A program made the position numbers and the translations under genes. DNA of 64,000 bases from Liolophura sinensis (Eukaryota > Mollusca > Polyplacophora > Chitonida > Chitonidae): NCBI RefSeq assembly GCF_032854445.1, contig NC_088295.1:5272501-5336500 (forward strand). Direction: 5' to 3'. Each line of letters begins with the position of its first letter. Position 1 is the first letter of the stretch. Positions 920-53,450 of the stretch are shown piece after piece. The notes below the pieces were generated by a model, which saw only the letters and a program-made list of their open reading frames with translations, made no database searches and was not told the origin of the DNA.

Positions 920-3900
920 ATGGCTGTCCCCGTAGTACTGCTGCTGTGTTGTGGGCTGGCGTTTGGTCAGGCGGTACGGTACGAGCCTAACTGGGCCTCC
1001 CTTGATCAAAGGCCTCTGCCCGACTGGTACGATGACGTGAAGTTCGGGATCTTCCTGCACTGGGGAGTGTTTTCCGTGCCGGGGTACGGTTACCCACCCT
1101 CCTTCCCTGGGGCCTGTGAGGCGTGGTTCTGGTGGCTTTGGAAAGGCGCCTTCGTCCCCCAGTATGAGGAGTTTGTCGCTGATAACTACCCTTCCGGGTT
1201 TTCCTACGCGGATTTTGCCCCTCTATTCCGTGCCGAGTTTTTCGATCCAGCCGAGTGGGCCGAGATTTTCCAGGCTTCTGGGGCGAGGTAATGTATGGGT
1301 TAACGTAACGTCATGATCACGGTCTACCTATCTCATATGTAAACTAATGATATCACCATGGACAAAGCCGCTGTTAGCATCCTGTTATAGCTCAGTTGTC
1401 TACCATTGATAATGATGACCAGTACAAAAGCACATTAAACTTCACCAGAACACGGGACGTCAGTACATATAAGTGACCCATTTATATCGCCTTCATTGAG
1501 CTGATAAGTCACTGGCAGTATGACCATAACAGGACTCCGTACAAACATCAGAACTAGCTATCCCCATGTATGACCAATAGGTACAAACACCAGAGTTAGC
1601 TATCCCTGTGTATGATCAATAGGTACAAACACCAGAAATAGCTATCCCTGTGTATGATTAATAGGTACAAACACCAGAACTAGCTATCCCTATGTATAAC
1701 CAGTAGGTACGAACAACAGAACTAGCTATCCCTATTTATGACCTCTTAGGTACAAACACCAGAACTAGCTATCCCTATGTATAACCAGTAGGTACAAACA
1801 CCAGAACTAGCTATCCCTATGTATGACCAATAGGTACAAACACCAGAGTTAGCTATACCTGTGTATGATCATTAGGTACAAACACCAGAACTAACTATCC
1901 CTGTGTATGGCTAACAGGTACAAAAACACCACAGCTAGCTATCCTTATGTATGACCAATAGGTACGAACACCAGACCTAGCTATCCCCATGTATGACCAA
2001 TAGGTACAAACACCAGAACTAGCTATACCGATGTATGATCAATAGGTACAAACACCAGAACTAGCTATCCCTATGTATGGCCATTAGGTACAAACACCAG
2101 AGTTAGCTATCCCTATGTATGACCAATAGGTACAAACACCAGAGTTAGCTATACCTGTGTATGATCATTAGGTACAAACACCAGAACTAACTATCCCTGT
2201 GTATGGCTAACAGGTACAAAAACACCACAGCTAGCTATCCTTATGTATGACCAATAGGTACGAACACCAGACCTAGCTATCCCCATGTATGACCATTAGG
2301 TACAAACACCAGAGTTAGCTATCCCTATGTATGACCATTAGGTACAAACACCAGAGTTAGCTATCCCTATGTATGACCAACAGGTACAAACACCAGACCT
2401 ACATATCCCTATGTATGACCAATAGGTGCAAACACCGGATTTACATCCCTATGTATGACTAGTAGGTACAAACACCAGAACTAGATATCCCTATGTATGA
2501 GCAATAGGTACAAACACCAGAGTTAGCTATACCTGTGTATGATCATTAGGTACAAACACCAGATCTAGATATCCCTATGTATGACCAATAGGTACAAACA
2601 CCAGAACTAGATATCCCTATGTATGAGCAATAGGTACAAACACCAGAGTTAGCTATCTGTATGTATGACCAATAGGTACAAACACCAGATCTAGATATTC
2701 CTATGTATGGTCAGTAGGTACAAACACCTGAACTGGCATACCTCTCCGTATGTATGGCCAATTCGTTCGAACACCTGAACTTTAATATCCCTCTAGTATA
2801 TCCGTCTGAATGTATTGTCAGCAGGTGAAAACACCAAACCGGCATATCGTTCTGCCTATATGATCAGTGAGTGCAAAGATCTGAACTCAATTTGCAAACG
2901 TCTGAACTAGGACTGCAAACTCCTAAAACTAGGATTGCAAACGTCTGAACTGGGATTGCAAACGTCTGAACGAGCACGAGCTGTAGATTACACGTTAAGA
3001 TATGGGTAATAGATATCTTCTGCAAGTATTCTACATGAACATATGATCATTTAATCATGTGGACAAATTGACGTTTTCCTCAGATATTTGATATTGACTT
3101 CCAAGCACCATGAGGGATTCACCAACTGGCCGTCTAAAGTCTCCTGGAACTGGAACTCCATGGATGTTGGACCTCAACGAGATTTGGTCGGTGAGTTAGG
3201 CAGCTAAACAGCCATGTGGTAGCATACAGAGTCACACAGTAAAACAGCCACGCTGTACAGAAGTTGCATAACAAAACAGCCACGCTGTACAGGAGCTACA
3301 CAACAAAACAGCCACGCTGTACAGGAGCTCCACAACAAAACAGCCACGCTGCACAGGAGTTCTACAACAAACAAACACGCTGTACAGGAGCTTCACAACA
3401 AACAGTCACGTTGTGCAGAAGTTACGCAACAAAACAGCTACGCTGTACAGAAGTTGCACAAAAAACAGGCTCGCTGTACAGAAGTTGCGTAACAAAACAG
3501 CCACACTGTACAGAAGTTGCATAACAAAAGAGCCACGCTGTACAGGAGTTGCACAACAAACAGCCACACTGTACAGGAGTTGCATAACAAAACAGCACGC
3601 TGTACAGAAGTTGAACAACAAAACTGCCGCGCTGTACAGGAATTGCATAACAAAACAGCCGCGCTTTACAGGGGTTACATAACAAAATAGCCAGGCTGTA
3701 CATGAGTTGCATAAGAAAACAGCTACGCTGTACAGGAGATGCATAAGAAAACATCCATGCTGTACGGGAGTTACACAACAAAACAGCCACGCTGTACAGG
3801 AGTTAAACAACAAAACAGCCACGCTGTGCAGTAGTTACACAACAAAACAGCCACACTGTACAGGAGTTGCATAACAAAACACCCACGATGTACAGTAGTG

Positions 3901-6900
3901 ACACAACAAAACAGCCGCGCTGTACAGGAGTTACACAACAAAACAGCCACGCTGTATTGGAGTTAAACAACAAAAAGCCACGCTGTACAGGAGTTCTACA
4001 ACAAACAAACACGCTGTACAGGAGCTTCACAACATAACAGCCACTTTGTTCATGCGTTAAATTACTCCAAATTATTACTAAGCACTTACGTATAAATATC
4101 TAAATAAACAGGCTTGCAGTTATGTAGTATAACGTGCTTACACCAGAATAAGCAGGTAAAAGCATCACCATGCTTTGTTTAACAGTGATGCCTATAAACT
4201 GTTAGCAACTACACTTTATAACAATTCACAGTGTGCCAGTTATGACGTATAATGATTGTATAAAAATTGCAAGGCAAAACTGCTACACAGTGTATCAGTT
4301 ATAGGGTGAACAATAATCATCAAACACCAGACCTAGGGATAGCTAGTTCTGGTGTTTGTACCTATTGAACATGCACATTCCGGAGTCACTTTCTACATGT
4401 TATACATTTTCTTGGAACCGCTTCGGTGGCTTAATGGTTAGAGTATCCGCCTCGAAGTCGAAAGAAGCACCTCCGCGCCGGCGCAGTTGGTAGAGCGTCC
4501 GCTTCGGGGGCAGTAGACCCTGGGTCAATCGTGCGTCAATTCTGGCTCGGGTCACACCTAAGACCTTAAAAGAGGAAGCTGTAGCTTCCTCGCTTGACTG
4601 GAAGTGCAACGACTGGTTGACCCGTATCAGTATAATGGCTCGGGTTGGGCGGCTTACTTGCGTTCGATAAATCGTTAAGTACGACGTCAAACCCCAAGCA
4701 CTCACTCACTCAAAGTTAGGAGATCTAGGATCAAACCCACGTCGGATCATACCAAAGACTATGAAAATGATACTTGTTGATGTCTTGCTTGGCGCTCAGT
4801 ACTGAGAGGTTAGAGCAAGGAATATATATCAGTATAATGTGACTGGCCGACAACTCGCCATACCAGGTACTCACTCTAAGACATTTTGAGTTTGCCAGTT
4901 ATAAGGTATAATACCTCCACGCTATGTGCACGGCAAAATAATATCTCGCCATGAAAGAAACTCAATATAACAGTTTCTTAGAGTAACGGTGAAAGCTGTA
5001 CCGTATGACAGTTATATTTCATGACCAGGTAAGTAAAACCAGGAATGTACTGTTTACACTTGGTGTAATTGCTATACCCTGTAGCGGATGAACACAATAG
5101 CCTTTTTTCTCCCACAGGTGAGCTCGCTGCGGCCATCAGGAGTAAGACGGACATCCACTTTGGCCTCTATCATTCCCTCTTTGAGTGGTTTCACCCTCTC
5201 TACCTACAGGATAAGGCGAACAACTTCACCACCCAGGAATTCATCGCTGTAAGGTCGATGAAAGAACGTTGCGCATACATAATAAGGGAAATATTGCTGT
5301 ACAGTGGTTCTCTAACTAGTGAATAACAGGAAAATCTTTTTAAAAATCAAATAAATCAGTGAATAAAGTCTCACCACAAATAACTACTCCCAATCAGCAT
5401 GCGTTATATGATTTCAGAGGAAGACTATGCCGGAACTGTATGACTTAGTAAAGACGTATAAGCCTGACTTGATCTGGTCCGATGGGGAATGGGAAGCCTA
5501 TGATACTTACTGGAACTCTACAGAGTTTATAGCATGGCTGTACAATGACAGGTATGCCACACTTACTGGAACTCCACACAGATTATAGCATTGCTCTACA
5601 ATGACAGGTATACCACACTTACTGGAACTCCACACAGATTATAGCATGGCTTTACAATGACAGGTATACCACACTTACTGGAACTCCACACAGATTATAG
5701 CATGGCTCTACAATGACAGGTATGCCACACTTACTGGAATTCCACACAGATTATAGCATGGTTCTACAATGACAGGTATGCCACACTTACTGGAACTCCA
5801 CACAGATTATAGCATGGTTCTACAATGACAGGTATACCACACTTACAGGAACTCCACACAGTTTATAGCATGGCTCTACAATGACAGGTATGCCACACTT
5901 ACTGGAACTCCACACAGATTATAGCATGGCTCTACAATGACAGGTATGCCACACTTACTGGAACTCCACACAGATTATAGCATGGCTCTACAATGACAGG
6001 TATACCACACTTACTGGAATTCCACACAGATTATACCATGGCTCTACAATGACAGGTATACCACATTTACTGGAACTCCACACAGATTGTAGCATGGCTC
6101 TACAATGACAGGTGTACCACACTTACTAAAATTCAAAACAGATTATAGCATGGCTCTACAATGACAGGTATGCCACACTTAATGAAACTCCACACCGATA
6201 ATAGCATGGCTCTACAATGACAGGTATACCACTCTTACTGGAACTCCACACAGATTATAGCATGGTTCTACAATGACAGGTATACTAAGCTTACTGGAAC
6301 TCCACACAGATTATAGCATGGTTCTACAATGACAAGTATACCACATTTACTGGAACTCCACACAGGTTATAGCATGGCTCTACAATGACAGGTATACCAC
6401 CCTTACTGGAACTCCACACAGATTATAGCATGGCTCTACAATGACAGGTATGCCACACTTACTGGAACTCCACACAGATTATAGCATGGCTGTACAATGA
6501 CAGGTATGCCACACCTACTGGAATTCCACACAGATTATAGCATGGCTCTACATTGACAGGTATACCACACTTACTGGAACTCCACACAGGTTATAGCATG
6601 GCTCTACAATGACAGGTATGCCACACTTACTGGAACTCCACACAGATTATAGCATGGCTCTACAATGACAGGTATGCCACACCTACTGGAATTCCACACA
6701 GATTATAGCATGGCTCTACATTGACAGGTATACCACACTTACTGGAACTCCACATAGATTATAGCATGGTCCTACAATGACAGGTATACCACACTTACTG
6801 GAACTCCACACAGGTTATAGCATGGCTCTACAATGACAGGTATGCCACACTTACTGGAATTCCACACAGATTATAGCATGGTTCTACAATGACAGGTATG

Positions 6901-9900
6901 CCACACTTACTGGAATTCCACACAGATTATAGCATGGTTCTACAATGACAGGTATACCACACTTACTGGAACTCCACACAGATTATAGCATGGCTCTACA
7001 ATGACAGGTATGCCACATTTACTGGAGCTCCACCCAGTGTATAGCATGGCTCTACAATGACAGGTATACCACATTTACTGGAACTCCACACAGATTATAG
7101 CATGGCTCTACAATGACAGGTATACCACACTTACTGGAACTCCACACAGATTATAGCATGGCTCTACAATGACAGGTATACCACACTTACTGGAACTCCA
7201 CACAGATTGTAGCATGGCTCTACAATGACAGGTATACCACATTTACTGGAACTCCAAACAGATTATAGCATGGCTGTACAATGACAGGTATACCACATTT
7301 ACCAGAACTCCACACAGATTATAGCATGGCTCTACAATGACAGGTACACCACACAAAGTGGAACTCCACATAGATTATAGCATGGTTCTACAATGACAGG
7401 TATGCCACACTTACTGGAACTCCACACAGATTATAGCATGGCTCTACACTGACAGGTATACCACACATTGCGGAACTCCACACAGATTATAGCATGGTTC
7501 TACAATGATAGGTATACCACACTAACCGGAACTACACACAGATTATAGCATGGCTCTACAATGACAGGTATGCCACATTTACTGGAACTCCACACAGATT
7601 ATGGCATGGTTCTACAATGACAGGTATACCACCCTTACTGGAACTCCACACAGATTATAGCATGGCTCTACAATGACAGGTATGCCACACTTACTGGAAC
7701 TCCACACAGATTATAGCATGGTTCTACAATGACAGGTATGCCACACCTACTGGAATTCCACACAGATTATAGCATGGCTCTACAATGACAGGGACCGGCC
7801 TGGATAGCACAGTTGGTAGAGCGTTCGCTTCGGGACCGGTAGACCCAGGATCAATCCTTGGTCGAGTCACACCTAAGACTTTAAAAGAGGAAGTTGTAAC
7901 TTCCTCGCTTGGCGTTCAGCATGAAGGGGATAGTGCAACAACTGGTTGACCCGTATCAGTATAATGGCTCGGGCGGGGCGGCTTACTTGCCTTCGGTAAG
8001 TCGTCTCAGTGATGCAGCACTAAAAAAAAGAGCGGTGGAAATCCGTCCTGCAACAAGGAGGCACATTACACGTGCATGCACCCTAATGATTCCTTCGTCG
8101 TCATATGACTGAAAAATTGTTGAGTACGACGTTAAACCCCAAGCACTCACTCACTCACTACAATGACAGGTATACCACACTTACTGGAATTCCACACAGA
8201 TTATAGCATGGCTCTACAATGACAGGTATACCACACATTGCGGAACTCCACACAGATTATAGCATGGTTCTACAATGATAGGTATACCACACTAACCGGA
8301 ACTCCACACAGATTATAGCATGGCTCTACAATGACAGGTATACCACACTTACTGGAATTCCACACAGATTATAGCATGGCTCTACAATGACAGGTATACC
8401 ACACATTGCGGAACTCCACACAGATTATAGCATGGTTCTACAATGATAGGTATACCACACTAACCGGAACTCCACACAGATTGTAGCATGGCTCTACAAT
8501 GACAGGTATACCACATTTACTGGAACTCCAAACAGATTATAGCATCGCTGTACAATGACAGGTACACCACACTTACCAGAACTCCACACAGATTATAGCA
8601 TGGCTCTACAATGACAGGTACACCACACAAACTGGAACTCCACATAGATTATAGCATGGTTCTACAATGACAGGTATGCCACACTTACTGGATCTCCACA
8701 CAGATTATAGCATGGCTCTACAATGACAGGTATACCACACATTGCGGAACTCCACACAGATTATAGCATGGTTCTACAATGATAGGTATACCACACTAAC
8801 CGGAACTCCACACAGATTATAGCATGGCTCTACAATGACAGGCATACCACATTTACTGGAACTCTACAGAGCTTATAGCATGGCTTTAAAATGACAAGTA
8901 TACCACACTTACTGGAACTCTACAGAGCGTATAGCTTGGCTCTACAATGACAGGCATAGCACGCTTAATGGAACTTCACATAGTTTATCACATGACTCTA
9001 CCATGACATGAATACCACACGTACTGGAACTCAATACAGTTTATGGCATGCCCTATAATGACAGGCATGCCACGATTAAAAGAACTCCACACAGTTTAAA
9101 GCATAGCTCTACAATGACAGGTATATCACACTTACTGGAACTCTACAGAGTTTAGAGCACGGCTCTACAATGACAGGCATAACAAATTTACTGGAATTCT
9201 ACAGAGCTTATAACATGGCTTTACAATGACAAGTATACCACACTTACTGGAACTCTACAGAGCTTATAGCTTGGCTCTACAATGACAGGCATACCACATT
9301 TACTGGAACTCTACAGAGCTTATAGCATGGCTTTACAATGACAGGCATAGCACGCTTAATGGAACTCCACATAGTTTATCACATGACTCTACCATGACAT
9401 GAATACCACACGTACTGGAACTCAATACAGTTTATGGCATGCCCTATAATGACAGGCATACCACGTTTAATAGAACTCCACACAGTTTAAAGCATGGCTC
9501 TACAATGACAGGTATACCACACTTACTGGAACTCCATATAGTTTATGGCATGGCTGTACAATGACAGGTATACCACACTTACTGGAACTCCATACAGCTT
9601 ATAGTATGGCTGTACAATGACAGGTATACCATACTTACTGGAACACCACACAGTTTATAGTATGGCTCTACAATGACAGGTATACCACACTTACTGGAAC
9701 TCCATACAGTTTATGGCATGGCTGTACAATGACAGGTATACCACACTTACTGGAACTCCATACAGTTTATAGTATGGCTGTACAACGACAGGTATACCAC
9801 ACTTACTGGAACTCCATACAGTTTATAGCATGGCTCTACAATGACAGGTATACCACACTTACTGGAACTCTACAGAGCTTATAGCATGGCTATACAATGT

Positions 9901-11984
9901 CAGGTATGCCACACTTAGTGGAACTCCATACAGTTTATAGCATGGCTTTACAATGACAGGCATACCACATTTACTGGAACTCTACAGAGCTTATAGCATG
10001 GCTATAGAATGACAGGTATGCCACACTTACTGGAACTCTACAGAACGTATAGCTTGGCTCTGCAATGGCAGGTATACCACGCTTACTGGAACTCCACAGA
10101 GTTTGGAGCAGGACTCTACAGTAACAGATGTACCACACTTACCGGAACTCCACAGAGTTTATAGTATGACTCTACAATGACAGGTGTACCACACTCACTG
10201 GATCTCCACACAGTTTAATACTGGAACTCCACAGAGTTTGTAGCTTGACTCTACTGTGGCAGGTGTACCACATGTGAGTATGGTTGAATAGATTATTGAG
10301 TTGAATTGTTTAACTGAGTTCAATTGGTTGTTGCTTGACGCCACACTGGAGATTTATTCACTTAACCCGTAGTGGTCAGTTTACGGGATCAGGAAACCTA
10401 AATGCCTGGGTAAACCACGTATCGTTATCGCCACACTCTCCCACGTGTGACGTACAGATGACCAGACCATGTTTGTGGAAAACATGCGACGGTGGGTGGC
10501 CACTTATTGCCCACTTATTAACTACCATGGCATTTGACTCTAATTTATACTTCCTTTATTTATTGCAGTCCGGTGCGAGACTACGTGGTAATTAATGACA
10601 GGTGGGGTATCGGGGATAGGTGCAAACATGGAGGTTATTACACCTGTGATGACCGCTACAATCCAGGTAAGAGTTTTAATTACCATGAAGTACGCTTGTC
10701 ACACTTTTAACATTGAATGCAGCACAGTTACAATGGTTTTGCCGTTAAATTTGTTCTAGGTGTCCTACAAAACTATAAATGGGAGAATGCGATGACACTG
10801 GAAAAGGATGCTTGGGGTTACCGTCGTAATGCCGTGTTAGACGACTATCTGACTATAGAAGAGCTGGTTGCCCTGCTCGCTCAGACCGTCAGGTGAGACA
10901 CCTGCTGGAATCGAACCGCTACCGTATCAGTGGGTCTTGGTACGTGTGCACGTAGGGGAGGAGTTAATCATGTCTGAATGACTAACAAGGAAGAAAAGAT
11001 CAAGCAAAATACATAGTCCAATTTCTGCCCTGGCTCGCATCTTTACTCTCTTCACTGACATGATCGGTTTTAAAAGAGTTCAAAAGGATAGAATAATCTT
11101 GAACATGTGGATAATCGTCAGTGGGAGTTGCACCTGTGAGCAGAAAACACACAAGAGAAAGATATCCTCAAAATAGCATGATTCTGTCCCATCAGATGGT
11201 CAAAGCATTTACCATGACTGGGTTTCCCATTCTCACGCTTGACATTGTCATTTCAGTACGGGGGGGAATATGGTTCTAAACGTGGGCCCTACTGCCGATG
11301 GTCGGATTACACCCTTGTTTGAAGAGAGACTGCGCCAGATGGGGAAATGGTTGGAAGTGAATGGGGAAGGGATATACAAGACAAAACCATGGAAATTCCA
11401 AAATGATACGGTTAACCCGGACGTGTGGTGAGTCTGTGACCCTCCGTGATTTTCTCATGTTAGTGCGTGTAATGCCGGTACTGATGTGAATACATCCTGT
11501 AAAGACAAAACGTTTTGAACACGGTGATTGTGTAGGATACTCATAAAAAGTCAGTACCCAATCCAACAGATTCCTTATTCTGTATATACTGATCTAATAA
11601 TATACACAAATCATCTATATTTTGAACTGATCGTTTGAACATCCCATAGCCTATCAATGACCAATTGCTGATGCTCAATAGCCCGGGTAGCCTAGCCGGT
11701 ATAGATAATACTCTCTACTAATGCTGATTTGCAGGTACACCACCAGTAAGGTGAACTCGTCCGTGTATGCGATACTACTGAAGTGGCCCAACACGGACAC
11801 CCTGTACCTGGATGCTGTTACAGCCACGTCCAGCACTGTGGTCACTCTGCTTGGCTACCCTGGGCACCTCTCCTGGACCCCAATCAATCCCAGGGGACTC
11901 AGCATCATGATACCACCTATACCTATCAATAAAATGCCCTGCGAATGGGGATGGGTGTTTAAACTAGAAAACTTAGAGCCCTAG
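920..11984 (+). CDS. Alpha-L-fucosidase (GH29), gene A, eight exons
   Basis: This encodes a secreted or lysosomal exoglycosidase that removes alpha-L-fucose from glycans. The exons, read by continuity of the protein and by AG/GT borders, are 920-1287, 3084-3190, 5118-5248, 5418-5551, 10569-10666, 10760-10892, 11257-11427 and 11735-11984. They total 1392 nt (463 aa plus stop), close to human FUCA1 (466 aa). Residues 1-18 form a signal peptide ([18 protein letters not shown]). The family signature YEPNW follows, then [10 protein letters not shown] in exon 2 and [12 protein letters not shown] in exon 3. The WSDGEW motif in exon 4 puts the catalytic nucleophile at Asp224 (human Asp225). KWENAM in exon 6 puts the likely acid/base at Glu288 (human Glu289); Ala stands where the PROSITE-type KWExC pattern has Cys. 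WNST is an N-glycosylation sequon. Introns 1, 2 and 4 are filled by minisatellites. Gene B converges on it from the other side. Confidence 0.93.
1510..2760 (+). repeat. 42-bp minisatellite, intron 1 of fucosidase A
   Basis: Tandem units of about 42 bp are built around 'aggtacaaacaccagaac' and 'tagctatccctatgtatga', roughly 30 copies. Higher-order duplication is visible: the stretch near 1800-2000 recurs almost exactly at 2100-2300. The array degenerates after about 2700. It lies wholly inside intron 1 (1288-3083). No coding potential is seen. Confidence 0.9.
3235..4045 (+). repeat. ~32-bp minisatellite, intron 2 of fucosidase A
   Basis: About 25 units of roughly 31-34 bp are built around 'aacaaaacagccacgctgta' and 'caggagttgca'. 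Several short open frames cross it on both strands. They are by-products of the repeat and show no domain. The array begins about 45 bp after the exon 2 donor. Its first units look derived from the start of the intron, but no exon sequence is included. Confidence 0.88.
4320..4372 (-). repeat. Inverted stray units of the intron 1 minisatellite
   Basis: Two half-units of the 42-bp intron 1 repeat lie head to head in intron 2. 'caaacaccagacctag' is followed by 'ggatagctagttctggtg' and 'tttgtacctatt', the reverse complement of the intron 1 unit. This makes a small palindrome about 1.6 kb away from the parent array. Confidence 0.7.
4425..4870 (+). mobile_element. Nested tRNA-derived SINEs, intron 2 of fucosidase A
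   Basis: An outer SINE begins at 'cttcggtggcttaatggtta' (tRNA-like A box). It is interrupted after about 4463 by a second SINE of family 1 (about 4470-4713). The inner copy has 'gcgcagttggtagagcgtcc', then 'cacacctaagaccttaaaag', and ends in 'aagcactcactcactca'. The outer element's remainder ('ggatcaaacccacgtcgg') resumes afterwards. The inner copy has a shortened middle compared with those at 7793-8157 and 24680-25047. The tRNA-like boxes mark RNA polymerase III origin, not a functional tRNA gene. Confidence 0.7.
5504..10235 (+). repeat. 56-bp splice-donor minisatellite, intron 4 of fucosidase A
   Basis: About 78 tandem units of about 56 bp, interrupted once by a SINE (7793-8157). The unit reads 'tactggaactccacacagat', then 'tatagcatggctctacaatg', then 'acag' joined to 'gtataccacact'. 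This is the last ~44 bases of exon 4 (coding [15 protein letters not shown]) followed by the exon 4 splice donor and the first bases of intron 4. The true exon end at 5551 is therefore the first member of the array. Nearly every unit keeps CAG|GTATRCC. Units after about 8850 are more divergent, with blocks of higher-order repeats. The same array fills intron 4 of gene B. Confidence 0.93.
7793..8157 (+). mobile_element. Full-length tRNA-derived SINE, family 1, inside the 56-bp array
   Basis: The head 'ggcctggatagcacagttgg' has tRNA A-box character and 'aggatcaatcc' resembles a B box. A body shared with copies at 24680-25047, 49695-49955, 59285-59640 and 62420-62695 follows. The tail is 'aagcactcactcactcac'. 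The target sequence 'tacaatgacagg' occurs immediately before and after, consistent with a target-site duplication within one minisatellite unit. A 67-codon frame in the body is shared between copies and is considered incidental. Confidence 0.85.
10240..10568 (+). other. Non-repetitive end of intron 4
   Basis: This stretch separates the 56-bp array from exon 5 and ends in the acceptor 'ttatttattgcag'. An 86-codon open frame spans much of it and runs into exon 5, but it has no recognisable domain and is taken as chance. Nothing else is seen. Confidence 0.6.
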
Positions 11985-13680: not shown

Positions 13681-13789
13681 TTCTTTTAACTTACATATTC
13701 CGCTAGATCTGTAAATTCACACGTACCCGCTAATAAAATTGCATTTCATTGGTGACGATGCTTGAGACAATTGAGCTAGCGAACCCCGT

Positions 13790-16745: not shown

Positions 16746-16779
16746 CAAGCGCAAGCTGGATTTTCACTACGCTCTAGAC

Positions 16780-19400: not shown

Positions 19401-19549
19401 TCATATGCCAAACTGTGAAGCAAGATATGGTAAAGTTATCAATTCCGGTAGTTACATTTTATACATTCACCACACTGAAAACAAATATGTATTGAATTTA
19501 TGAATAGTTACATTTCATCCATTTACCAGATTGTGAACCAAGGTATAGT

Positions 19550-22917: not shown

Positions 22918-25900
22918 TCAAAAAATTCCATTTTCACATTTACGGCCCTCATCCTGCTTCAGTCCCTCAAGTTTGAAGACCCATGCCCACTGACATGGCA
23001 TCTGGTCTATGGAAATTGCTGGTATAGTGATGTGAATACCACGGGGGTTTGCTGCGGTCCAGGAGAATGTACCAGTGTAGCCCAGCAGGGAGACGGTGGT
23101 AGAGGAGGTGCTGTTTGGGGCATCCAGGTAGAGACTACCTCCCTTAGGCCAGGAGAGGACAGTGGCATACACAGCTGTGTTGTCACCTTTACCTGACGTG
23201 TACCTGTTGCGAACACAAATGGGGACTGTCAACTACACACATTCTGGGCTACTGTGAAGTACACTCATGGGGGCTGTGAACTGATGAGCTACACATATGG
23301 GAACTGTGAACTGTTGACCTACATATATGGGAACTGTGAACTGTTGAACTACACGAGGACTGTAAACTGGTGATCTGAACTAGTGACCTACACACATGGG
23401 GACTGTGAACTAATGACCTACACATGTGGGGACTGTGAGCCGGTGAAGTTCACACGTGGAGACTGTAAACTAGTGACCTACACTAGTGGGGACTGTGAAC
23501 TGTTGACCTACACACATGGGGACTGTGAACTAGTGACCTACACACATGGGGACCGTGACTGTTGAACTACACAAATGGAACTGTGAACTGTTAAACTACA
23601 AGAGGACTATGAACTGGTGAACTACACACATGGGATCTGAACTAGTGACCTACATACATGGGGACTCTGAACTAGTGACCTACATGCATGGGGATCGTGA
23701 ACTGGTGACCTACACACATGGGGACTGTGAACTACGCACACTGGGACTGTGAACTGTTGACCTACACACATGGGGACTGTGAACTGTTGACCTACACACA
23801 TGGGGACTGTGAACTAGTGACCTACACACCTGGGGAATGTGAACTAGTGACCAACACACATGGGAACTGTGAAATGTTGACCTACACACATTCGGACTGT
23901 AAACTAGTGAACTATACATATGAGGACTTTGAATTAATGACCTATACACATGGGGAATTTGAACCAGTGACCTACACAAATGGGGACTGAACTAGTGACC
24001 TAGACACATGGGAACTGTGAACTACACACATGGGGACTGTGAACTGACAACCTACATACACGGGCACTATGAAATGGTGACTTACACACATGGGGCTATG
24101 AACTGGTGACTTACACACATGGGGATTGTGAACTGGTAAACTACACACTTGGGGACTGTGAACTGGCCAACTACACACATGGGGACTGAACTGGCAACCT
24201 ACACACACGGGGACCATGAACTGGTGACTTACACACATGGGGACTATGAACTGGTGTACCACACATATAGCTACCATGAACCAGTTAAGGTGCGTGTGAA
24301 TGATCATTTGCCTCTTCTACGATTATAAGTACCACAGACTTTTTATAAAACATTTTTGTTCATGAATATTTGCTACATGTAGTTCAATTGTGGGATAGAA
24401 CTAACAACAAGACAAAATCCTGGACAGCACAACAGGTCTCGACATAAGAGGCGATCGAACCCACCAATCGCCTGTCGATCTTCAACACGTAAATTCAGGG
24501 GAACGAATTTTTCAATCAACATGTAAACTCCAGGGGAATAATAATTTCACATGTTGGCAAGTACAATGTGCTTTCTGTAGGTCGCAAACAGCTAAATTTA
24601 TTTTATTTACAGGAAAATCCAAACAAACTTCTTGCTGGTTTAAATAGAAAAAGAACTGATCAACGATGTCAGTAAAATGAGTGAGTGAGTGAGTGCTTGG
24701 GGTTTAACGTCGTACTCAACAATTTTTCAGTCATATGACGACGAAGGAATCATTAGGGTGCATGTACGTGTAATGTGCCTCCTTGTTGCAGGACGGATTT
24801 CCACCGCTCTTTTATTTAGTGCTGCTTCACTGAGACGACTTACCGAAGGCAAGTAAGCTGCCCCGCCCGAGCCATTATACTGATACGGGTCAACCAGTCG
24901 TTGCACTATCCCCTTCATGCTGAACGCCAAGCGAGGAAGTTACAACTTCCTCTTTTAAAGTCTTAGGTGTGACTTGATCTAGGATTGATCCTGGATCTAC
25001 CGATCCCGAAGCGAACGCTCTACCAACTGTGCTATCCGGGCCGGTCCAGTAAAATGAAAATGGCTGCTTGCATTGGTCAGCGTAGGCTACTTATATTTAC
25101 CGTGACCTGTGATTGGATCAGCCAAAATTGCATGACCGATGAAATTTCGGCTGTTTCGGCTCATAATCCCAAATAATTGTTCACACGTCTGAGGAGTTCA
25201 TGGAGCCAGAATATCGACTTTAATTTAATGATTAATATTTTAACTGACACTATTACCACAATAAAATCAATCAAACAATTATATTATTAAAATCAATACA
25301 TATATATTACAATTCTCTGCATGATTTTTTTTCAAACACGATCAAACCTGATTCTTAAAATAAAGAAAACATACACCTTGTACCTTAGGGTCCATTATCT
25401 TTACCCGGCAGCGTGGATATATGTACCATGAAATACAACCACCGTTACAAGACAATTTCTACAATCAGAATGTAAAGCTAATCCGTGGATTTGAGGTTCC
25501 CACACACCTTTCTAGAGGGTGATGTCCCCTCGGAACAGAGAAGAGTTGTCAACAAGAGCACACAATGCAGTATTGGGTGAACTATGTAAGCTACCAGGTG
25601 AGCAATTGAGGGGAATGTTCAATGCCCGTGACCTCTCTAGGGGTGATCAGAATTTTGATCTCCTGGATTTTGGGTCAGGAGAGCGATTTTCCAAACCGCT
25701 CATTCATCCTGATGTCGAGGCCTGTACAACAAGAGGATTTAGAACTTACCAGACCCCAGGTGTGACTGTGTCATTCTGGAATGCCCAGGGTTTTGTCTTG
25801 TATATGGCCTCCCCGTTCACCCCTAGCCACTGGCCAGTCTGGCGAAGTCTCTCTTCAAAGATAGGGTTAATTCTCCCCGCAGCTGTGGGTCCCACGTTCA

Positions 25901-28900
25901 TCAACATATTTCCCCCAGTGCTGTCAACATGAGCATCTACATGTAGCTTTCAATTCATTTATTTATTTGATTGGTGTTTTACGCCGTACTCAAGAATATT
26001 TCACTCATACGACGGCGGCCAGCATTATGGTGGGTGGAAACCCACCGGGGGAAACCCACGACCATCCGCAATTTGCTGACAGACTTTCCCATGTACGGCC
26101 GGAGAGGAAGCCAGCATGAGCTGGACTTGAACTCACAGCGACCGCATTTGGTGAGAGACTCCAGGATCATTGTACTGCGCTAGTGCGCTAACAGACTGAG
26201 CCACGGAGGCCCCTGTAGCTTTCAAAGCCTTCAGAATGTCTACATACATGTACCTCCACTACACTTTTGTAAGAACATTTGTGATAACTGAGAAAGCATT
26301 TTAGTTGATTAAAAATTCAGTAATTTTACCTGTGGCTACAAATTAATTAATGGGTTCGTGTGTTAATGATGTGAATTTACAAGTGTACGTGGTATATACA
26401 CTCTAGGCTAAGCCTACCTGATTGCAATGAGCAGGGTAATGGCAACTGTACCTACCTAATTCAGTAATCAACTGTATGATGAGTGTACATTCACTCCTAC
26501 AATTATTCACTTCCTTGTAAAGCATTTCAATTTCTGCTGAAAATTCTCATCCGTGTACACCTTTTCTGTAATGTTAATCCCATCATAGGCCCACTGGAAA
26601 TCAGTTGAAAAGCTCACTCTGGTAAATGGAAAGGATTTTGACCAAGATACTACAGTACGTGTACCTGCATGATTGTAATGATTGTAATAACAAGGGATGC
26701 TTACCTGACTGTGATAACTGGGATGCTTACCTGACTGTGATAACTGGGATGCCTACCTAACTGTGACAACAAGGGGTGTTTACCTGACTGTGTTAATTGG
26801 GATTCCTACCTGACGGTGACAACAGGGGGTGCTTACCTGACTGTGATAATTGGGATTCCTACCTGACTGTGACAACAAGGGCTGCTTACCTGACTGTGAT
26901 AACTGGGATGCCTACCTGACTGTGACAACAAGGGGTGCTTACCTGACTGTGATAATTGGGATTCCTACCTGACGGTGACAACAGAGGGTGCTTACCTGAC
27001 TGTGATAATTGGGATTCCTACCTGACTGTGACAACAAGGGGTGCTTACCTGACTGTGATAACTGGGAGGCCTACCTGACAATGAGTGAGTGAGTGAGTGA
27101 TTGGGGCTTAACGTCGTGCTCAATGACTGTGATAACAAGGGCTGCTTACCTGACTGTGATAACAAGAGTACTAATCACTTCTTCCATGGTCAGGTATTCA
27201 CTGAGATCAGCATTACGCCGATATCCCCATGAGTCTTTGTCAATAGTCATGGCATTCTCCCACTTCCTCTTCTGCAGAGTTCCTGGCAGGAAAAATAAAA
27301 ACTCAAGAACTTCAGGAGCACTACAAATTACTACACAAGAAGTTAGGTGCATGTATGTGCTTTGGGTTTTATGTCGTACTTAGATATAATAATTTTCCAG
27401 TCATATGACGAGGAGGAGTCATATGATGTGTGTACATATATTGTGTCCTCTTGTGGCAGGTCCATGCTGACAAAATGCTGCCACCACTGAAGCATGATGT
27501 GGAAGACACCAGACATGACACCTCACCCATTCACATTACACTGACATCAGGCCAACCAGTCCTCTTTCCTTGCTCTAACATCTCAGTGCTGAACACAAAG
27601 TGAGGCTAATTTACCTGTAAATAATCCAGTAACATGAATATGTATTCATGACATACCTATATGATTGTTTTTATAGCTATACTCAAGAATATTTCACTTA
27701 CACATGTATATGTATATGAGAGCAGTCACTATTATCTGTTCAGGAAATCAGGGTGCCCAGTTAAATCACCAACCTGAGGCAAGCCGACATGTACATTCCC
27801 AGGTGTACTGCAATGTATAGACTTAGACGCTTTGTGGGTGGAATATAAGTGGTCTTCAATGAGGGTGAGACTGTGTATACAACCCCCAAAATGAACGCAG
27901 TTTCCAATAGCTGTAAAAAAATTCATCAAAATGACTTTCTCTGAATTTTCATTGATATGAATATAGACGTGCTTACCTGGATTATAACGATCTGCACAGG
28001 TGAGGTAGCCTCCATGATGACACGTCGCATCACTACCCCACCTGTCATTGGTCACAACGACATCCTTCACAGGACTGTAAACACAAAGCACCAATTAAAA
28101 GCTCTACCAAACACACTGAAAATCTAAAACTGAGCAACTTATTAAAGGTTTGTCATATCATCAGTTAATATACAAAAAGTTCCAAGTGGGCAGTACTTGT
28201 GGGTATTACTTCTTTTCTTCCCTAAACTCTTGATAATGGATAGTACTCATTCCTATATTCTATGCCCAAGAATATTCCAGCAAAGTGCAGTATCCCAGCT
28301 GTCATTGTAGGGGCGTTCTTTAACCTACGTAGTTCCAAGAAGTCTGGTACAAGCCTCATGCCGTAAACTGTGGAGTTCCAGTAAATGTGATATACCTGCC
28401 ACTGTACAGCTATGCTATAAACTCTGTACAGTTTCAGTAAGCGTGGTATACCTGCCATTGTAGAGTCATACTATAAACTGTGTGGAGTTCCAGTAAGTGT
28501 GGTATACCTGCCATTGTAGAGTCATACTATAAACTGTGTGGAGTTCCAGTAAGTGTGGTATACCTGCCATTGTAGAGTCATGCTATACACTTGGTGGAGT
28601 TCCTGTAAGTCTGGTATACCTGCCATTGTAGAGTCATGCTATACACTGGGTGGAGTTCCAGTAAGTGTGGTATACCTGCCATTGTACAGTCATGCTATAA
28701 ACTGTGTGGAGTTCCAGTAAGTGTGGTATACCTGACATTGTAGAGCCATGCAACTATGTGGAGTTCCAGTGAGTGTGGTACACCTGCCATTGTACAGTCA
28801 TGCTATAAACTGTGTGGAGTTCCAGTAAGTGTGGTATACCTGCCATTGTAGAGTCATACTATAAACTGTGTGGAGTTCCAGTAAGTATGGTATACCTGCC

Positions 28901-31900
28901 ATTGTAGAGTCATGCTATACACTGGGTGGAGTTCCAGTAAGTGTGGTATACCTGTCATTGTACAGTCATGCTATAAACTGTGTGGAGTTCCAGTAAGTGT
29001 GGTATACCTGACATTGTACAGCCATGCAACTATGTGGAGTGCCAGTGAGTGTGGTACACCTGCCATTGTACAGTCATGCTATAAACTGTGTGGAGTTCCA
29101 GTGAGTGTGGTATACCTGTCATTGTACAGCCATGCTATAAACTGTGTGGAGTTCCAGTAAGAATGGTATACCTGTCATGGTAGAGCCATGCTATAAACTG
29201 TGTGGAGTTCCAGTAAGTGTGGTATACCTGTCATTGTAGAGCCATGCTATAAACTGTGTGGAGTTCCTGTAAGTGTGGTACACCTGCCATTGTACGGCCA
29301 TGCTATAAACTGTGTCCAGTTTCAATAAGTGTTGTATACCTGTCACTGCATGGCCATGCTATAAACTACGTGGACTTCTAGTAGATGAGGTATACCTGCC
29401 ATTGTAGTCATGCTATAAACTGTGTGGAGTTCCAGTAAGTGTGGTATACCTGCCATTGTACAGCCATACTATAAACTGTGTGGAGTTCCAGTAAGTGTGG
29501 TAAACCTGTCATTGTACAGCCATGCTATAAACTGTGTGGAGTTCCAGTGAGTGTGGTATACCTGTCACTGTAGAGTCATGCTATAATCTGTGTGGAGTTC
29601 CAGTAAGTGTGGTATACGTGACATTGTAGAGCCATGCTATAAACTGTGTGGAGTTCCAGTGAGTGTGGTACATCTGCCATTGTAGAGTCATGCTATAAAC
29701 TGTGTGGAGTTCCAGTAAGTGTGGTATACCTGCCATTGTACAGTCATGCTATAAACTGTGTGGAGTTCCAGTGAGTGTGGTACACCTGCCATTGTAGAGT
29801 CATGGTATAATCTGTGTGGAGTTCCAGTAAGTGTGGTATACCTGTCATTGTACAGCTATGCTATAAACTGTGTGGAGTTCCAGTGAGTGTGGTATACCTG
29901 ACATTGTAGAGCCATGCTATAATCTGTGTGGAGTTCCAGTAAGTGTGGTATACCTGACATTGTAGAGCCATGCTATAATCTGTGTGGAGTTCCAGTAAGT
30001 GTGGTATACCTGACATTGTAGAGCCATGCTATAAACTGTGTGGAGTTCCAGTAAGTGTGGTATACCTGACATTGTACAGCCATGCTATAAACTGTTTGGA
30101 GTTCGAGTGAGTGTGGTACACCTGCCATTGTAGAGTCATGCTATAATCTGTGTGGAGTTCCAGTAAGTGTGGTATACCTGCCATTGTAGAGTCATGCTAT
30201 AAACTGTGTGGAGTTCCTGTAATAAATAAGTTGCTTCAATAAGTGTCGTATACCTGTCACTGTATGGCCATGCTATAAACTACGTGGACTTCCAGTAGAT
30301 AAGGTATACCTGCCACTGTACAGCCATGCTATAAACTGTGTGGGGTTCCAGTAAGTGTGGTATACCTGTCATTGTACAGCCATACTATAAACTGTGTGGT
30401 GTTCCAGTAGGTGCTTGTATACCTGTCATTGTACAGCCATACTATAAACTGTATGGAGTTCCAGAAAGTTTGGTACACTTGCCACTGTAGAGCCATGCTA
30501 TAAACTCTGTAGAGTTCCAGTAAGATAGTATATCTGTAATTATAGACCAATGTTATAAACTGTGTTGAGATTCAATAAGTGTGATATACCTGTCACTGTA
30601 GAGCCATGTTAAGAATTCTGTGAAGTTCCAGTAAGTGTGATATACCTGTCACTGAACAGCCATGCTAAGAATTCTGTGGAATTCCAGTAAGGGAGATATA
30701 CCTGTCATTGTAGAGCCATGCTAAGAATTCTGTGGAGTTCCAGTATGATGAATTTGCTTCCCAATCGCCATCAGACCAAATAACTTCTGGCTTGTAAGCA
30801 TTGATTATCTCGTATAACTCTGGCATCGTTTTCCTCTGTTAAAAACACATGAAAACTTCATTACATACAATGTACATACATGCCACTAAGAATAACCGCT
30901 ACTTGATAGAGCATCAAATGCATTTAGCCATCTGAACGGTCCTAAATACCAACAGGACAAGGTCAGGCCACCAGTACAAAGTAGGTCAAGACAAGGTCAG
31001 GCTGCCAGTACAAAATAGGTCAGGACAAGGTCAGGCCACCAGTACAAAATAGGTCAGAACTAGGTGAGACCACCAATACAAAATAGGTCAGGACAAGGTC
31101 AGGCCGCCAGTACAAGGTCAGGCCACCAGTACAAAATAGAACTAGGTCAGGCCACCAGTAAAAAAAGGTCAGGACAAGGTCAGGTCACCAGTACAAAATA
31201 GGTCTTGACAAGGTCATGCCACAATTACAAAATAGGTCAGGACAACGTCAGGCCACCAGTACAAAATAGGTCTGGACAACGTCAGGCCACCAGTACAAAG
31301 TAGGTCTGGACAAGGTCAGGCCACCAGTACAAAATAGGTCAAGACATGCAGTTTTAACATGGACATTGCAGATTTACATGTGTAAGTGTCGGTTTTGACT
31401 AAAACAGGAATTCATGTTCGTTTGTGTGTTTGGCAAGAGAAGGCAAATATAAGACACAATCACACTACTCACAGCTACAAATTCCTGGGTAGAAAACTTA
31501 TTCGCCTTATCCTGCAGGTAGAGAGGGTGAAACCACTCAAAGAGGGAATGATAGAGACCAAAGTGGATATCTGTCTTGTTACGAATGGCAGCTGCAAGCT
31601 CACCTGTCAAACATAGAACGCAAAAGTGCAAGATGTCATACAGATAAAATAACCCTGTGTCACATGTTACACCTGACACCAAATGTCAAAAAGAGAACAT
31701 AACCAGACACCAGATGTCAAAGAGAAAACCTAGCCTAACACCAGATGTTAAAGACAAAACCTAGCTTGACACCAGATGTTAAAGAGAAAACCTAGCCCAA
31801 TACCAGGCATAACACAGAAAACCTAGCCTGATACCAGATATAAAAAGGAAAACCTACCCTGATACCAGGTATAACATAGAAAACCTAGCCTGATACCAGG

Positions 31901-34768
31901 TGTAACAGAGAAAACCTAGCATGATACCAGATGTAAAAGAGGAAAACCTAGCCTGATACCATGTGTAACAGAGAAAAGCTAGCCTGACACCAGATGTCAA
32001 ACAAAAAACCTAGCATGATACCATGCGTAACAGAGAAAACCTAGCCTGATACCAGGTGTTAAAGAAAAAAACCTAGCATAATACCATACCAGATGTTACA
32101 GAGACCATATTTTGAACAGAGAAGCCAGAGGTTGATGGTTTTTCATCCAGACATCCACATGACAACATACAAGTAATTCTGCCTATATAACTCTTTACAG
32201 GATCACCCCTGGGAAACAGTTGGGAATGTCTGACTCACCTTACCAATGTATGATATGTAACACACATGCACGCAGGCAATCCTTCCGACAAAAATGATAG
32301 GATGTATAAACGTGCCCAGCATACAGTGTACCTACACATGGCAAATATTAGGCTCATATTTATGAAATCTGCCACACACTCAAAACAATGCAACACTTCA
32401 TATTCACAACATTTTGCATTAACGTGCCCTGTTTAGCATTTTTCATACTCTACATGGGGGAGAGGCATTTCCACACATTTACACAAGCATATAGTTATAA
32501 CCATCCCACATATACAAAACAAACTACATGAACATTCACTTATTCTGATGCACAAGCTTTGTATATTTACATTTTATAACATATGAAAGTGAGAATATTG
32601 GCAGATAGCAGTTGTAAATGTAATCATAAATGCACACCGCATGTTGCACTGAGAAAACAACCAGATGTCTGATGGTAATCAAACGATACACACAGACACA
32701 CATGTACTATTTTGAACTCAAACTACAAACGTTACAAGGAGAAATGTTACTATGTCAGCTGTAAAAACAAATACAACCAGATGTCAGACAGGAAATACAA
32801 CCAGATATCAGACAGGAAATACAACCAGATATCAGACAGGAAATACAACCAGGTGTCAGACAGGAAATACAACCAGATATCAGACAGGAAATACAACCAG
32901 ATGTCAGACAGGAAATACAACCAGATATCAGACAGGAAATACAACCAGATGTCAGACAGGAAATACAACCAGGTGTCAGACAGGAAATACAACCAGATAT
33001 CAGACAGGAAATACAACCAGATATCAGACAGGAAATACAACCAGATATCAGACAGGAAATACAACCAGATATCAGACAGGAAATACAACCAGGTGTCAGA
33101 CAGGAAATACAACCAGATATCAGACAGGAAATACAACCAGATATCAGACAGGAAATACAACCAGATATTAGACAGGGAATACAACCAGATATCAGACAGG
33201 AAACACAACCAGATGTCTGACAGGATATACAACCAGGTGTCAGACAGGAAACAGAACCAGATATCAGACAGGAAATACAACCAGATGTAAGACAGGAAAT
33301 ACAACCAGATATTAGACGAAATACAACCAGATATTAGACAGGGAATACAACCAGATGTCAGATATCAGGCTGTCTTCAAGTGATGGCATTAGTTCGAGTT
33401 TTCAGTTGATTATTTACCATGTTTACAAGCTGACATTCTTATCAAAGATGAAAGTACTGAACAACAAAAACAAAAGAACAGGGTTTACACTAATTTGATG
33501 TACATGTATGAACATGTAATTAAATCTACAGGAAATCTGGCGATAAAGGAAGGTAGATGAGTTTGTGTTTAGTATGCACTTCCTCACCCACAAGGTCCCG
33601 CCGAGGTCCCACATCCATGGAGTTCCAGTTCCAAGAAACGGGGGAAGGCCAGTTGGTGAATCCTTCATGGTGCTTGGAGGTCAGCACAACATATCTGAGA
33701 ATGTACAAAAACACATACAACTACAAATACAGTCAAGCTGAAGATACCTTTGTCCCCTCCTGAAGTGCCAATGAGTGCCAATTTTGATGGCTGTTGGCTT
33801 GATCGGGCTAGAGACCAAGTCAAAGTCTCCTGCTAAAAGTGGATATGTAGCGAACAGCCTTAATGAGTTTCTCTTTGTATCTTGCAAATCTTACTGAAAT
33901 TTTTTGCTTATTAATTTTTTTTAAATTTTTATCTCTTTACTACATGAATTTAAATGCCAGATCTCACATGTCTGTGACAGATGTCCTACTTTATCTGGAC
34001 TCCCATCGTAACAGTCTGCATCTAAACTAGTCTTCTATATGAATACTGCATTTACCCGTCACATGGTACACCTATAATTAAAGAATAACCCAGACCTTAT
34101 AGTCCAGCATGTCTATTCCATACCACAGCTCTGTAAACTTGTTTACAAATTCCAGCATGTCTATTCCATATGACAGCTCTGTAAACTTGTCTACACAGTC
34201 TAGCATGTCTATTCCATACCACAGCTCTGTAAACTTGTCTACACAGTCTAGCATGTCTATTCCATACCACAGCTCTGTAAACTTGTCTACACAGTCTAGC
34301 ATGTCTATTCCATACCACAGCTCTGTAAACTTGTCTACACAGTCTAGCATGTCTATTCTATACCACAGCTCTGTAAACTTGTCTACACAGTCTAGCATGT
34401 CTATTCCATACCACAGCTCTGTAAACTTGTCTACACAGTCTAGCATGTCTATTCCATACGACAGCTCTGTAAACTTTTCTACAAATTCCAGCATGTCTAT
34501 TCCATACCACAGCTCTGTAAACTTGTCTACACAGTCTAGCATGTCTATTCCATACCACAGCTCTGTAAACTTGTCTACACAGTCTAGCATGTCTATTCTA
34601 TACCACAGGTCTGTAAACTTGTCTACATAGTCCAGCATGTCTATTCCATACCGCAGCTCTGAAAAGTTGTCTACATAGTCCAGCACGTCTATTCCATTCC
34701 ATACCACACGAAACTTGTCTATATAGTACTACATGATTACTACGTACACAACAGCTTTGTAAACTAGA

Positions 34769-34831
<63 letters not shown>

Positions 34832-49244: not shown

Positions 49245-49460
49245 AAGGTATGACCATGGAAAATGCCAAGTCATGGCGACCGTATTGGCCGAACATGACA
49301 CCTGTATACTGTAAATGCCAATTGATGACGACAGTATTGCCCGATGATGATAGCTGCATGTTTACTGTAAATGCCAATTTCATGACGACAGTATTAGCCG
49401 AGGATGACACCTGTCTACTATAAAGGCCAATGACGACAGTATTGATACTACGGGTTAATC
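49245..49460. repeat. ~54-bp repeat, short array (family shared with 61.2-62.1 kb)
   Basis: Four units of 'actgtaaatgccaatt', 'tgacgacagtattg', 'ccgaggatgacacctgt'. The same unit forms a longer array at 61210-62075. The following stretch 49530-49640 ('aagaaatatgtataatgcca') also recurs at about 62090-62190, so a direct duplication links 49.2-50.3 kb with 61.2-62.3 kb. Confidence 0.75.
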
Positions 49461-51785: not shown

Positions 51786-53450
51786 GGTCCTTGTTATCAT
51801 AGTCAGGCAATCATTCCTTGTTGTCACAGTCAGGTAGGCATCCCTTGTTATCACAGTCAGGTAGATATCCCTTGTTATCATAGTCAGGCCATCATTCCTT
51901 GTTATCACAGTCAGGTAATCATCCCTTGTTATCATAGTCAGGTAATCATCCCTTGTTGTCACAGTCAGGTAGGTATCCCTTGTTATCATAGTCAGGCAAT
52001 CATCCCTTGTTATCACAGTCAGGTAGGCATTCCTTGTTATCATAGTCAGGTAATCATCCCTTGTTGTCACAGTCAGGTAGGTATCCCTTGTTATCATAGT
52101 CAGGCAATCATCCCTTGTTATCACAGTCAGGTAGGCATCCCTTGTTATCATAGTCAGGTAATCATCCCTTGTTATTATACTCAGGTAATCATCCCTTGTT
52201 GTCACAGTCAGGTAGGCATCCCTTGTTATCATAGTCAGGCAATCATCCCTTGTTATCACAGTCAGGTAGGCATCCCTTGTTATCATAGTCAGGTAATCAT
52301 CCCTTGTTGTCACCGTCAGGTAGGTATCCCTTGTTATCATAGTCAGGCAATCATCCCTTGTTATCACAGTCAGGTAGGCATTCCTTGTTATCATAGTCAG
52401 GTAATCATCCCTTGTTGTCACAGTCAGGTAGGTATCCCTTGTTATCATAGTCAGGCAATCATCCCTTGTTATCACAGTCAGGTAGGCATCCCTTGTTATC
52501 ATAGTCAGGTAATCATCCCTTGTTATTATAGTCAGGTAATCATCCCTTGTTGTCACAGTCAGGTAGGTATCCCTTGTTATCATAGTCAGGTAATCATCCC
52601 TTGTTGTCACAGTCAGGTAATCATCCCTTGTTGTCACAGTCAGGTAGGCATCCCTTGTTATCATAGTCAGGTAACCATCCCTTGTTGTCACAGTCAGGCA
52701 ATCATGACTTGTTATCACAGTCAGGCAATCATCCCTTGTTATAACAGTCAGGCAATCATCCCTTGTTATCATAGTCAGGCAATCATCCCTTGTTATCACA
52801 GTCAGGTAATCATCCCTTGTTATCACAGTCAGGTAGGCATTTCTTGTTATCACAGTCAGGCAATCATCCCTTGTTATCATAGTCAGGTAATCATCCCTTG
52901 TTATCACAGTCAGGTAGGCATCCCTTGTTATCACAGTCAGGCAACCATCCCTTGTTATCATAGTCAGGTAATCATCCCTTGTTATCACAGTCAGGCAATC
53001 ATCCCTTGTTGTAACAGTCAGGTAGGCATCCCTTGTTATCATAGTCAGGTAATCATCCCTTGTTGTCACAGTCAAGTAGGCATTCCTTGTTATCACAGTC
53101 AGGTAGGTATCCCTTGTTATCACAGTCAGACCCAAGCCTTGTTATCACAGTCGTAAGCAATCTTTGTTATCACAGCCAGGCAATCATCCCTTGTTATCAC
53201 AGTAAGGTATCCATTCCTTGTTATCACGGTCAGGATATCACCCCTTGTTACCACAGTCAGGTAATCATCCCTTGTTATCACAGTCAGGTAGAGGTCCCAG
53301 TTATCGCAATCAGGTAGGCATCCTTTATTATCACAATCAGGTAGGAATCCTTTATTATCACAGTCAGGTAGGCATCCCAGTTATCACAGTCAGGTGGGCA
53401 CCCCTTGTTATCACAGTCTGTTAGGCATCAAAACCTTGGTCATTACAATC
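51785..53450 (+). repeat. 27-bp splice-donor minisatellite beside pseudogene D
   Basis: About 60 units of 'tgttatcacagtcaggtagg' then 'catccct', with forms ending 'gtaatcatccct'. This is the unit found in intron 6 of gene B: the end of exon 6 plus CAG|GTAGGC or CAG|GTAATC. Here no exon 6 remains; the array abuts the 93-bp array directly, so exon 6 was deleted at the junction. Units after about 53140 are degenerate. Confidence 0.92.

Follow-up and report, generated by a model that had tools for sequence, protein, structure and literature searches.

A minisatellite built on the exon 4-intron 4 junction of an alpha-L-fucosidase gene in the mollusc Liolophura sinensis

Known junction repeats and the fucA satellite

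Mirages are minisatellite-like duplications of exon-intron boundaries, described from the amphioxus genes for Adh3, globin, troponin C and PGBD5 (PMC3087553, PMC3902484). In the globin mirages both boundaries are affected, AG/GT is held by many but not all of the repeats, two haplotypes carry 6 and 3 units, and the data suggest that regular splicing is undisturbed (PMC3087553). PGBD5 has been added to the amphioxus mirages, and Adh and troponin C are cited in the same connection (PMC3902484). A comparable structure is found in the mollusc Liolophura sinensis, in a window of 64,000 nucleotides (the whole stretch analysed; assembly GCF_032854445.1, contig NC_088295.1, positions 5,272,501 to 5,336,500). 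In this window, intron 4 of fucA, a GH29 alpha-L-fucosidase gene, holds a 56-bp satellite whose unit spans the junction between exon 4 and intron 4. It belongs to a known kind, the mirage, in a new lineage, and the new points are its recurrence and its sharing between paralogs.

The likeness to the amphioxus mirages covers tandem repeats across a splice boundary, intact genes, AG/GT in many but not all copies and the involvement of both boundaries. Unlike the amphioxus globin mirage with its 6 and 3 units, about 80 copies lie in one intron here and 64 in another. The cases also differ in that the host is a mollusc, several paralogous genes carry arrays that were apparently exchanged, and the evidence is the sequence of one assembly. 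A sequence-only reading of this DNA had called such an intron satellite unusual, a judgement tempered by the junction satellites already described as mirages in amphioxus (PMC3087553, PMC3902484). A limited literature search found no report of mirages outside amphioxus and no junction satellite in a mollusc.

A minisatellite in the human interferon-induced gene 6-16 (IFI6), reportedly described by Turri in 1995, is said to give multiple splice donors, several of which are used, with a 12-bp unit that keeps the frame. IFI6 so described is similar to fucA in its repeated donors at an exon-intron junction. Unlike the reportedly in-frame 12-bp unit, the 56-bp unit of fucA shifts the frame, and none of the 62 later CAG/GT donors is in frame, which excludes an in-frame multi-donor reading for these sites. 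Intron gain by tandem duplication of AGGT, discussed in PMC3087553, likewise involves tandem duplication with a donor-like AG/GT. This route is excluded for fucA, as the position of intron 4 is common to all 15 modelled GH29 genes, each having GT and AG where they are expected. In TERT intron 6, 38-bp repeats affect splicing by RNA:RNA pairing (PMC3948165). The fucA array is similarly an intronic repeat possibly influencing splicing and differs in that it begins inside an exon.

The product of fucA matches PF01120 (4.4e-132), PF16757 and, over residues 20-460, tissue alpha-L-fucosidase 7pls (E 2.2e-182). As in mirages, the gene is otherwise intact and retains its authentic junction, with a 463-aa open reading frame and GT-AG introns throughout (Table 1). 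Tandem Repeats Finder (TRF) placed the 56-bp array at 5505-10217 with a score of 5814. A profile search (E up to 1) gave 80 matches at 5505-10271, one of which is the exon itself, leaving about 79 in intron 4; 67 of the intron units are near full length. Each unit consists of 47 bases of exon 4 followed by 9 bases of intron 4, and so crosses the boundary in the way of a mirage. When compared with its own intron, the exon-4 junction of fucA scored 95; 100 dinucleotide shuffles reached no more than 37, and the junctions of the other introns 26, which puts the similarity beyond chance, a doubt raised by the sequence-only reading itself. That reading had counted about 78 copies, with coordinates right to within a few units, and had described the unit as the end of exon 4 (about 44 bases) plus the donor and the first intron bases; both descriptions are upheld.

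The peptide encoded by the exon-4 tail aligns with YWNSTNFLSWLYND of 7pls. Moreover, the GH29 paralogs D-H, which have no array in intron 4, carry a homologous exon-4 tail with 0.77-0.87 identity to that of fucA. Because the tail aligns with 7pls and stands in paralogs without the array, the comparison shows that it is exon 4 that seeded the satellite and not the reverse. Within the array, the exon-like motif TACAGAG persists in 8 of the 67 units, every one of them in the second of two blocks, and the proximal block is the more uniform; together these features fit a later expansion near the exon end. The tRNA-like short interspersed element (SINE) inside the array has unit sequence, CTACAATGACAGG, on either side as a 13-bp direct repeat, as read directly.

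Table 1. Coordinates of the fucosidase genes and their satellites in the window
Feature	Position	Strand	Remarks
fucA, GH29 alpha-L-fucosidase gene	920..11984	+	open reading frame intact, all introns GT-AG
fucA exons 1-4	920-1287, 3084-3190, 5118-5248, 5418-5551	+	
fucA exons 5-8	10569-10666, 10760-10892, 11257-11427, 11735-11984	+	
fucA exon 4	5418..5551	+	array seed = its last 47 bases, 5505-5551
56-bp junction satellite, first block	5552..7792	+	mostly CACACAGATTATAGC type
tRNA-like SINE inside one satellite unit, at its donor	about 7793..8159, edges approximate	+	read directly
56-bp junction satellite, second block	8159..10271	+	holds all 8 TACAGAG units
fucB, paralogous 8-exon fucosidase gene	22957..35497	-	
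56-bp satellite in fucB intron 4	28299..30747	-	44 matches including the exon's own
Independent junction satellite, fucB intron 6	26679..27079	-	units with GTTATCACAGTCAG/GTAAGC
27-bp array, CCTTGTTATCACAGTCAGGTAATCATC	51789..53418	+	60.6 copies (TRF); matches fucB exon 6/intron 6 junction

Strength and reading frame of the copied donors

Among 76 ungapped fucA units, the exon's own included, GT is present in 66, CAGGT in 59 and CAGGTATRCC in 51, and the AG/GT signal is therefore kept in many but not all copies, as in mirages. Within the donor, 88% of units retain the T and 98% the G; for comparison, 41 of the unit's 56 positions are retained in 93-100%. Selection on the copied donors is not visible, because the donor bases are no better conserved than the rest of the unit. 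Under a hand-written position-weight matrix, the true exon-4 donor CAGGTATGC reaches 4.13 and the commonest copy CAGGTATAC (33 counted) reaches 0.60. At least the score of the true donor is attained by 21 downstream sites in intron 4 (19 among 82 copy-like sites in a separate count). The sequence-only statement that almost every copy keeps CAG/GTATRCC was too strong in view of these counts, and its description of the donors as near-equal suits the 21 downstream sites and fails for the commonest copy. Its suggestion of small cryptic exons finds no backing in the unit, where direct reading, with no acceptor model applied, showed no pyrimidine tract before the AG.

All 62 later CAG/GT donors of fucA intron 4 give a premature stop, and none of the 57 in a score-based list of donors keeps the frame. 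The first stop in an extended exon 4 is met 35-37 bases into the intron, at codon 259. Since this stop precedes the donor of the first copy, every later donor runs into it, and as all 62 sites break the protein, a working enzyme needs donor 5551. The frame is likewise broken by 316 of 320 candidate donors across nine junction introns. In these introns strong sense donors reach 5.08 per kb, 13 times the 0.39 per kb of the other modelled introns (115 sites in 22,660 nt, against 23 sites in 58,925 nt); gene F introns 1 and 2 were left out of the density and frame count, and F intron 2 out of the later-donor stop test. In arrays away from junctions no sense-strand donor bias was found, with sense exceeding antisense in 15 of 27 (P 0.38). 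The RNA of the first five fucA units (281 nt) showed no unusual fold (z -0.64), which speaks, over this length, against the copies being hidden by unusual RNA structure. Either the first donor has to be chosen with few mistakes, or faulty transcripts have to be removed by the cell. As a problem of splicing, the most striking case is the paralogous gene Z, where intron 5 (locus L002, 3069-5410) holds a 38-bp array of 61 copies with the near-consensus donor CAG/GTGAGTTG in its unit, and where 36 sites score at least as high as the near-consensus true donor.

Recurrence and probable exchange within the GH29 family

Exon-level matches to PF01120 numbered 98 and fell at five loci, from which 15 GH29 genes were modelled, including two of the four to five fucosidase genes on contig C6. 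Splice sites were sought in phase and no more than 18 bases from the fucA positions, so that the phases are assumed; G1 is cut by the end of its stretch, exons 2-3 of F are unsure, and the D3 model has six stops and an uncertain exon-1 end. In the main junction test, which used 60 shuffles per intron and omitted introns with uncertain exon ends (F introns 1-2, D3 intron 1 and G1 introns 6-7), copies of the exon tail were significant in 9 of 100 introns: Z introns 1, 4 and 6, A (fucA) intron 4, B (fucB) introns 4 and 6, and intron 5 of D1-D3. Copies of the intron start were significant in 9 of 99 introns and copies of the intron tail in 5 of 99; exon-head copies reached significance in none of 100 under this strict shuffle test. 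An earlier test with 100 shuffles took the 28 introns of Z, A, B and D1 except four (B intron 3 and D1 introns 2, 3 and 7) and found eight of the 24 significant, D1 intron 1 among them. The D1 intron 1 donor is not counted here, since it scored 37 vs 25 in that first test and 31 vs 23, below the threshold, in the later one.

At a score of at least 26, donor-junction copies number 16 in Z intron 1, 64 in Z intron 5, 6 in Z intron 6, 15 in B intron 6, 2 in D intron 5 and 29 in G2 intron 2. By best alignment the units of Z intron 5 hold 3 exon bases and those of G2 intron 2 only 1, and both are therefore donor-start rather than exon-rich cases; the two junction copies of D intron 5 lie outside its TRF array. 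On the acceptor side, arrays cross the boundary in E1/E2 intron 7 and H1/H2 intron 6, so that both boundaries are affected, as in mirages. These are mainly intron-tail copies, and the units of E1/E2 intron 7 and H1 intron 6 extend 15-26 bases into the exon. D1 intron 1 offers a weak acceptor case (25 vs a shuffle maximum of 24). Counting the intron-4 arrays of A, B and Z once, copies are found at seven independent donors, with two firm cases and one weak case at acceptors.

The 56-bp satellite was sought through 609 Mb in 632 contigs, in a search scoring the best candidates only, and lay in the fucosidase cluster of contig C1; the four matches elsewhere were single, low-scoring and overlapped fucosidase exon 4. 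Its placement in intron 4 by the sequence-only reading is correct for fucA, and the satellite also fills fucB intron 4 and, within this cluster, forms arrays at four more places. Coding letters are 66-70% the same among genes Z, A and B, whose fourfold sites are 34-44% identical, near saturation. At E up to 1e-3, a single 15-base match was obtained among their introns other than intron 4, and the final 290 bases of intron 4 yielded two short matches only (E 0.42). The intron-4 arrays, however, align at 80-86% among the three genes. Mean unit identity is 0.851 for A-B, beside 0.875 for A-A and 0.865 for B-B, and 0.829 for Z-A beside 0.835 for Z-Z (P3, a near copy of P2, was omitted from this comparison). 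For 18 of 67 A units, 9 of 39 B units and 8 of 25 Z units, one of the other two genes holds a match of 0.96 or better, and some A and Z units are identical. Because the arrays are alike across genes whose fourfold sites and other introns have diverged, the intron-4 array was probably exchanged between paralogs after the genes diverged.

Consensus sequences point the same way. Built from full 56-nt units only (15 of 25 in Z, 35 of 67 in A and 18 of 39 in B), the Z array has 0.94 identity to the A exon tail and 0.85 to its own, and the B array 0.89 to the A tail and 0.83 to its own. The claim that the satellite is made of its gene's own junction thus stands for fucA and not for paralogs B and Z, whose arrays are nearer to the exon tail of fucA. 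The motif CACACAG is common in the arrays of A (40 of 67 units), B (26 of 39) and Z (22 of 25) and is absent from the exon tails of all three genes. Local re-copying of a gene's own exon into its array also occurs, because the first two units of the fucB array carry fucB's own exon variant TTCTTA. This variant is found in 2 of 39 B units and in 2 of 20 units of a pseudogene-side array (the first two of each), and in 0 of 67 A and 0 of 25 Z units.

Further arrays surround these genes. The satellite of fucB intron 6 comprises 15 junction copies at a score of at least 26. The match of the 27-bp array to the same fucB junction was seen directly, without a shuffle test, and this array lies upstream of pseudogene fragments of fucosidase exons 7/8 (54127-55279). 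An origin of the 30-bp array in fucB intron 7 (23251-24268) from the exon-7 junction is unsupported (20 vs a shuffle maximum of 24), and in shuffle tests the arrays of fucA introns 1 and 2 showed no similarity to exon tails. Array families of 52 bp, 56 bp and about 90 bp flank fucB on both sides (13137-19442 and 49261-58778); several look reverse-complemented by eye, which suggests an inverted segmental duplication. Exon 1 of fucA has an isolated second copy at 48094-47726 on the minus strand (96% protein identity), and from this copy to fucB no other fucosidase exon was found by tblastn (E up to 0.01). On contig C1, at 5343398-5411324, lie the three nearly identical genes D1-D3.

Origin of the arrays and what they mean

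From these results it is considered likely that the array of fucA intron 4 is a junction-seeded minisatellite of the mirage type, close to neutral, with the first donor still in use. This proposal builds on direct results: the array, its exon origin, its recurrence, a similarity between genes beyond that of gene divergence, and the lack of extra donor conservation. A tandem duplication would once have taken in the last part of exon 4 together with the start of intron 4. Of the copies, the upstream one would have gone on serving as the exon end while the others fell into the intron, and the change would have been near neutral because these are spliced out. Slippage or unequal exchange could then have raised the number of units to about 80, growth and shrinkage being likewise near neutral. 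Since each unit holds exon sequence common to the exon 4 of the paralogs, arrays could pass between neighbouring fucosidase genes, presumably by ectopic recombination or conversion. Splicing would most likely keep the first donor, 5551/5552, paired with the exon-4 acceptor by exon definition, and rare use of a later donor would lead to a premature stop.

Several observations weigh against this proposal. Part of the pattern may consist of minisatellites landing anywhere in introns. Ten non-redundant GH29 genes carry an array in 29 of 69 introns, and under a rough null of uniform placement in collapsed introns, with a post hoc donor count, the excess at donors is modest: by TRF edges, 5 of 30 independent arrays cross a donor against 1.93 expected (P 0.037). 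Acceptors are crossed by 2 of the 30 (P 0.59), and all 39 arrays give 6 donor and 4 acceptor crossings against 2.56 expected. When arrays with the junction inside the unit are considered, taking an 81-bp unit for Z intron 1, there are 6 donors against 1.81 expected (P 0.007) and 3 acceptors (P 0.27). The count by TRF edges omits rows scoring below 80 and arrays that consist nearly entirely of A, or of A with G. Arrays cover 36% of the 164-kb fucosidase cluster and 0-20% of the other stretches measured, including 0.7% at the hemocyanin locus and 0-14% in four other 10-kb stretches without gene models. The hemocyanin locus, on contig C8, shows eight PF14830 units in succession, an arrangement typical of molluscs that spoke against an amphioxus source; the GFP family gave no match, nor did any control, and is uninformative on this point. 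Perhaps a locus that freely makes minisatellites also makes them across junctions, at about three times the placement expectation at donors. As for exchange, the mean best unit match is higher in a unit's own array than in another (A 0.968/0.931, B 0.955/0.920, Z 0.978/0.914), and the cross-array match equals or beats the within-array match in 14 of 67 A, 9 of 39 B and 5 of 25 Z units; exchange would therefore be episodic, or old relative to local expansion. Finally, in a protein tree A groups with F, which has no intron-4 array (support 95/98). Array loss in F and D may be the alternative to gain in A, B and Z, two histories that the tree does not distinguish because it leaves the order of Z, B and D undecided.

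Other explanations differ in what they ask of the copied donors. A far-reaching one, which is possible yet doubtful, is self-propagating intron growth, in which an array born once would jump through the family by ectopic conversion with every paralogous exon end as a landing site, tens of equal-strength donors would be ignored, and array length would act as a tunable drag on expression. It is unlikely that the arrays form a regulatory poison switch, whose copies would bind U1, at times capture exon 4 and cause decay so that copy number tunes fucosidase output. The sites at least equal to the true donor (21 in fucA intron 4, 36 in gene Z intron 5) and the 316 of 320 frame-breaking donors would suit such a switch; a donor conservation no higher than elsewhere in the unit, the differences from gene to gene in which introns carry arrays and in what units they have, and the ordinary fold of the first five units speak against it. 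The idea that units serve as recursive-splicing sites or small cryptic exons starts from the AG that precedes GT in the consensus unit, as read directly, and is highly improbable given the missing pyrimidine tract noted above.

Origin can also be explained in other ways. Had the intron-4 array arisen separately in each paralog, out of that gene's exon 4, the TTCTTA of the first two fucB units, missing from the A and Z units, and the better average match of units inside their own array would be expected. This remains very unlikely given that the exon tail of fucA is a closer match to the Z and B consensuses than the tails of Z and B themselves, that CACACAG is common to the units of A, B and Z yet missing from their exon tails, and that all three genes have cross-gene matches of at least 0.96 at the frequencies given above. 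There is next to no chance that the end of exon 4 came from an unrelated satellite by exonisation; the array is continuous and in register with the exon, as that would require, and the idea is refuted by the tail peptide, which aligns in 7pls and is homologous in paralogs without an intron-4 array. That assembly errors account for part of the copy number and order is improbable: tandem arrays are hard to assemble and the 164-kb cluster holds 200 N, yet the window has none, the units diverge along the array, the SINE interrupts it, and similar arrays stand in three separate genes.

With the near-neutral, junction-seeded minisatellite as the favoured origin, mirage-type satellites are extended beyond chordates to a mollusc, and many natural cases of junction satellites become available within one gene family. 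In fucA intron 4 and gene Z intron 5, with their 21 and 36 rival donors, the choice of the first donor and the cost of error are measurable in RNA. Moreover, the apparent sharing of arrays among paralogs points to a way in which intron content may spread through a gene family.
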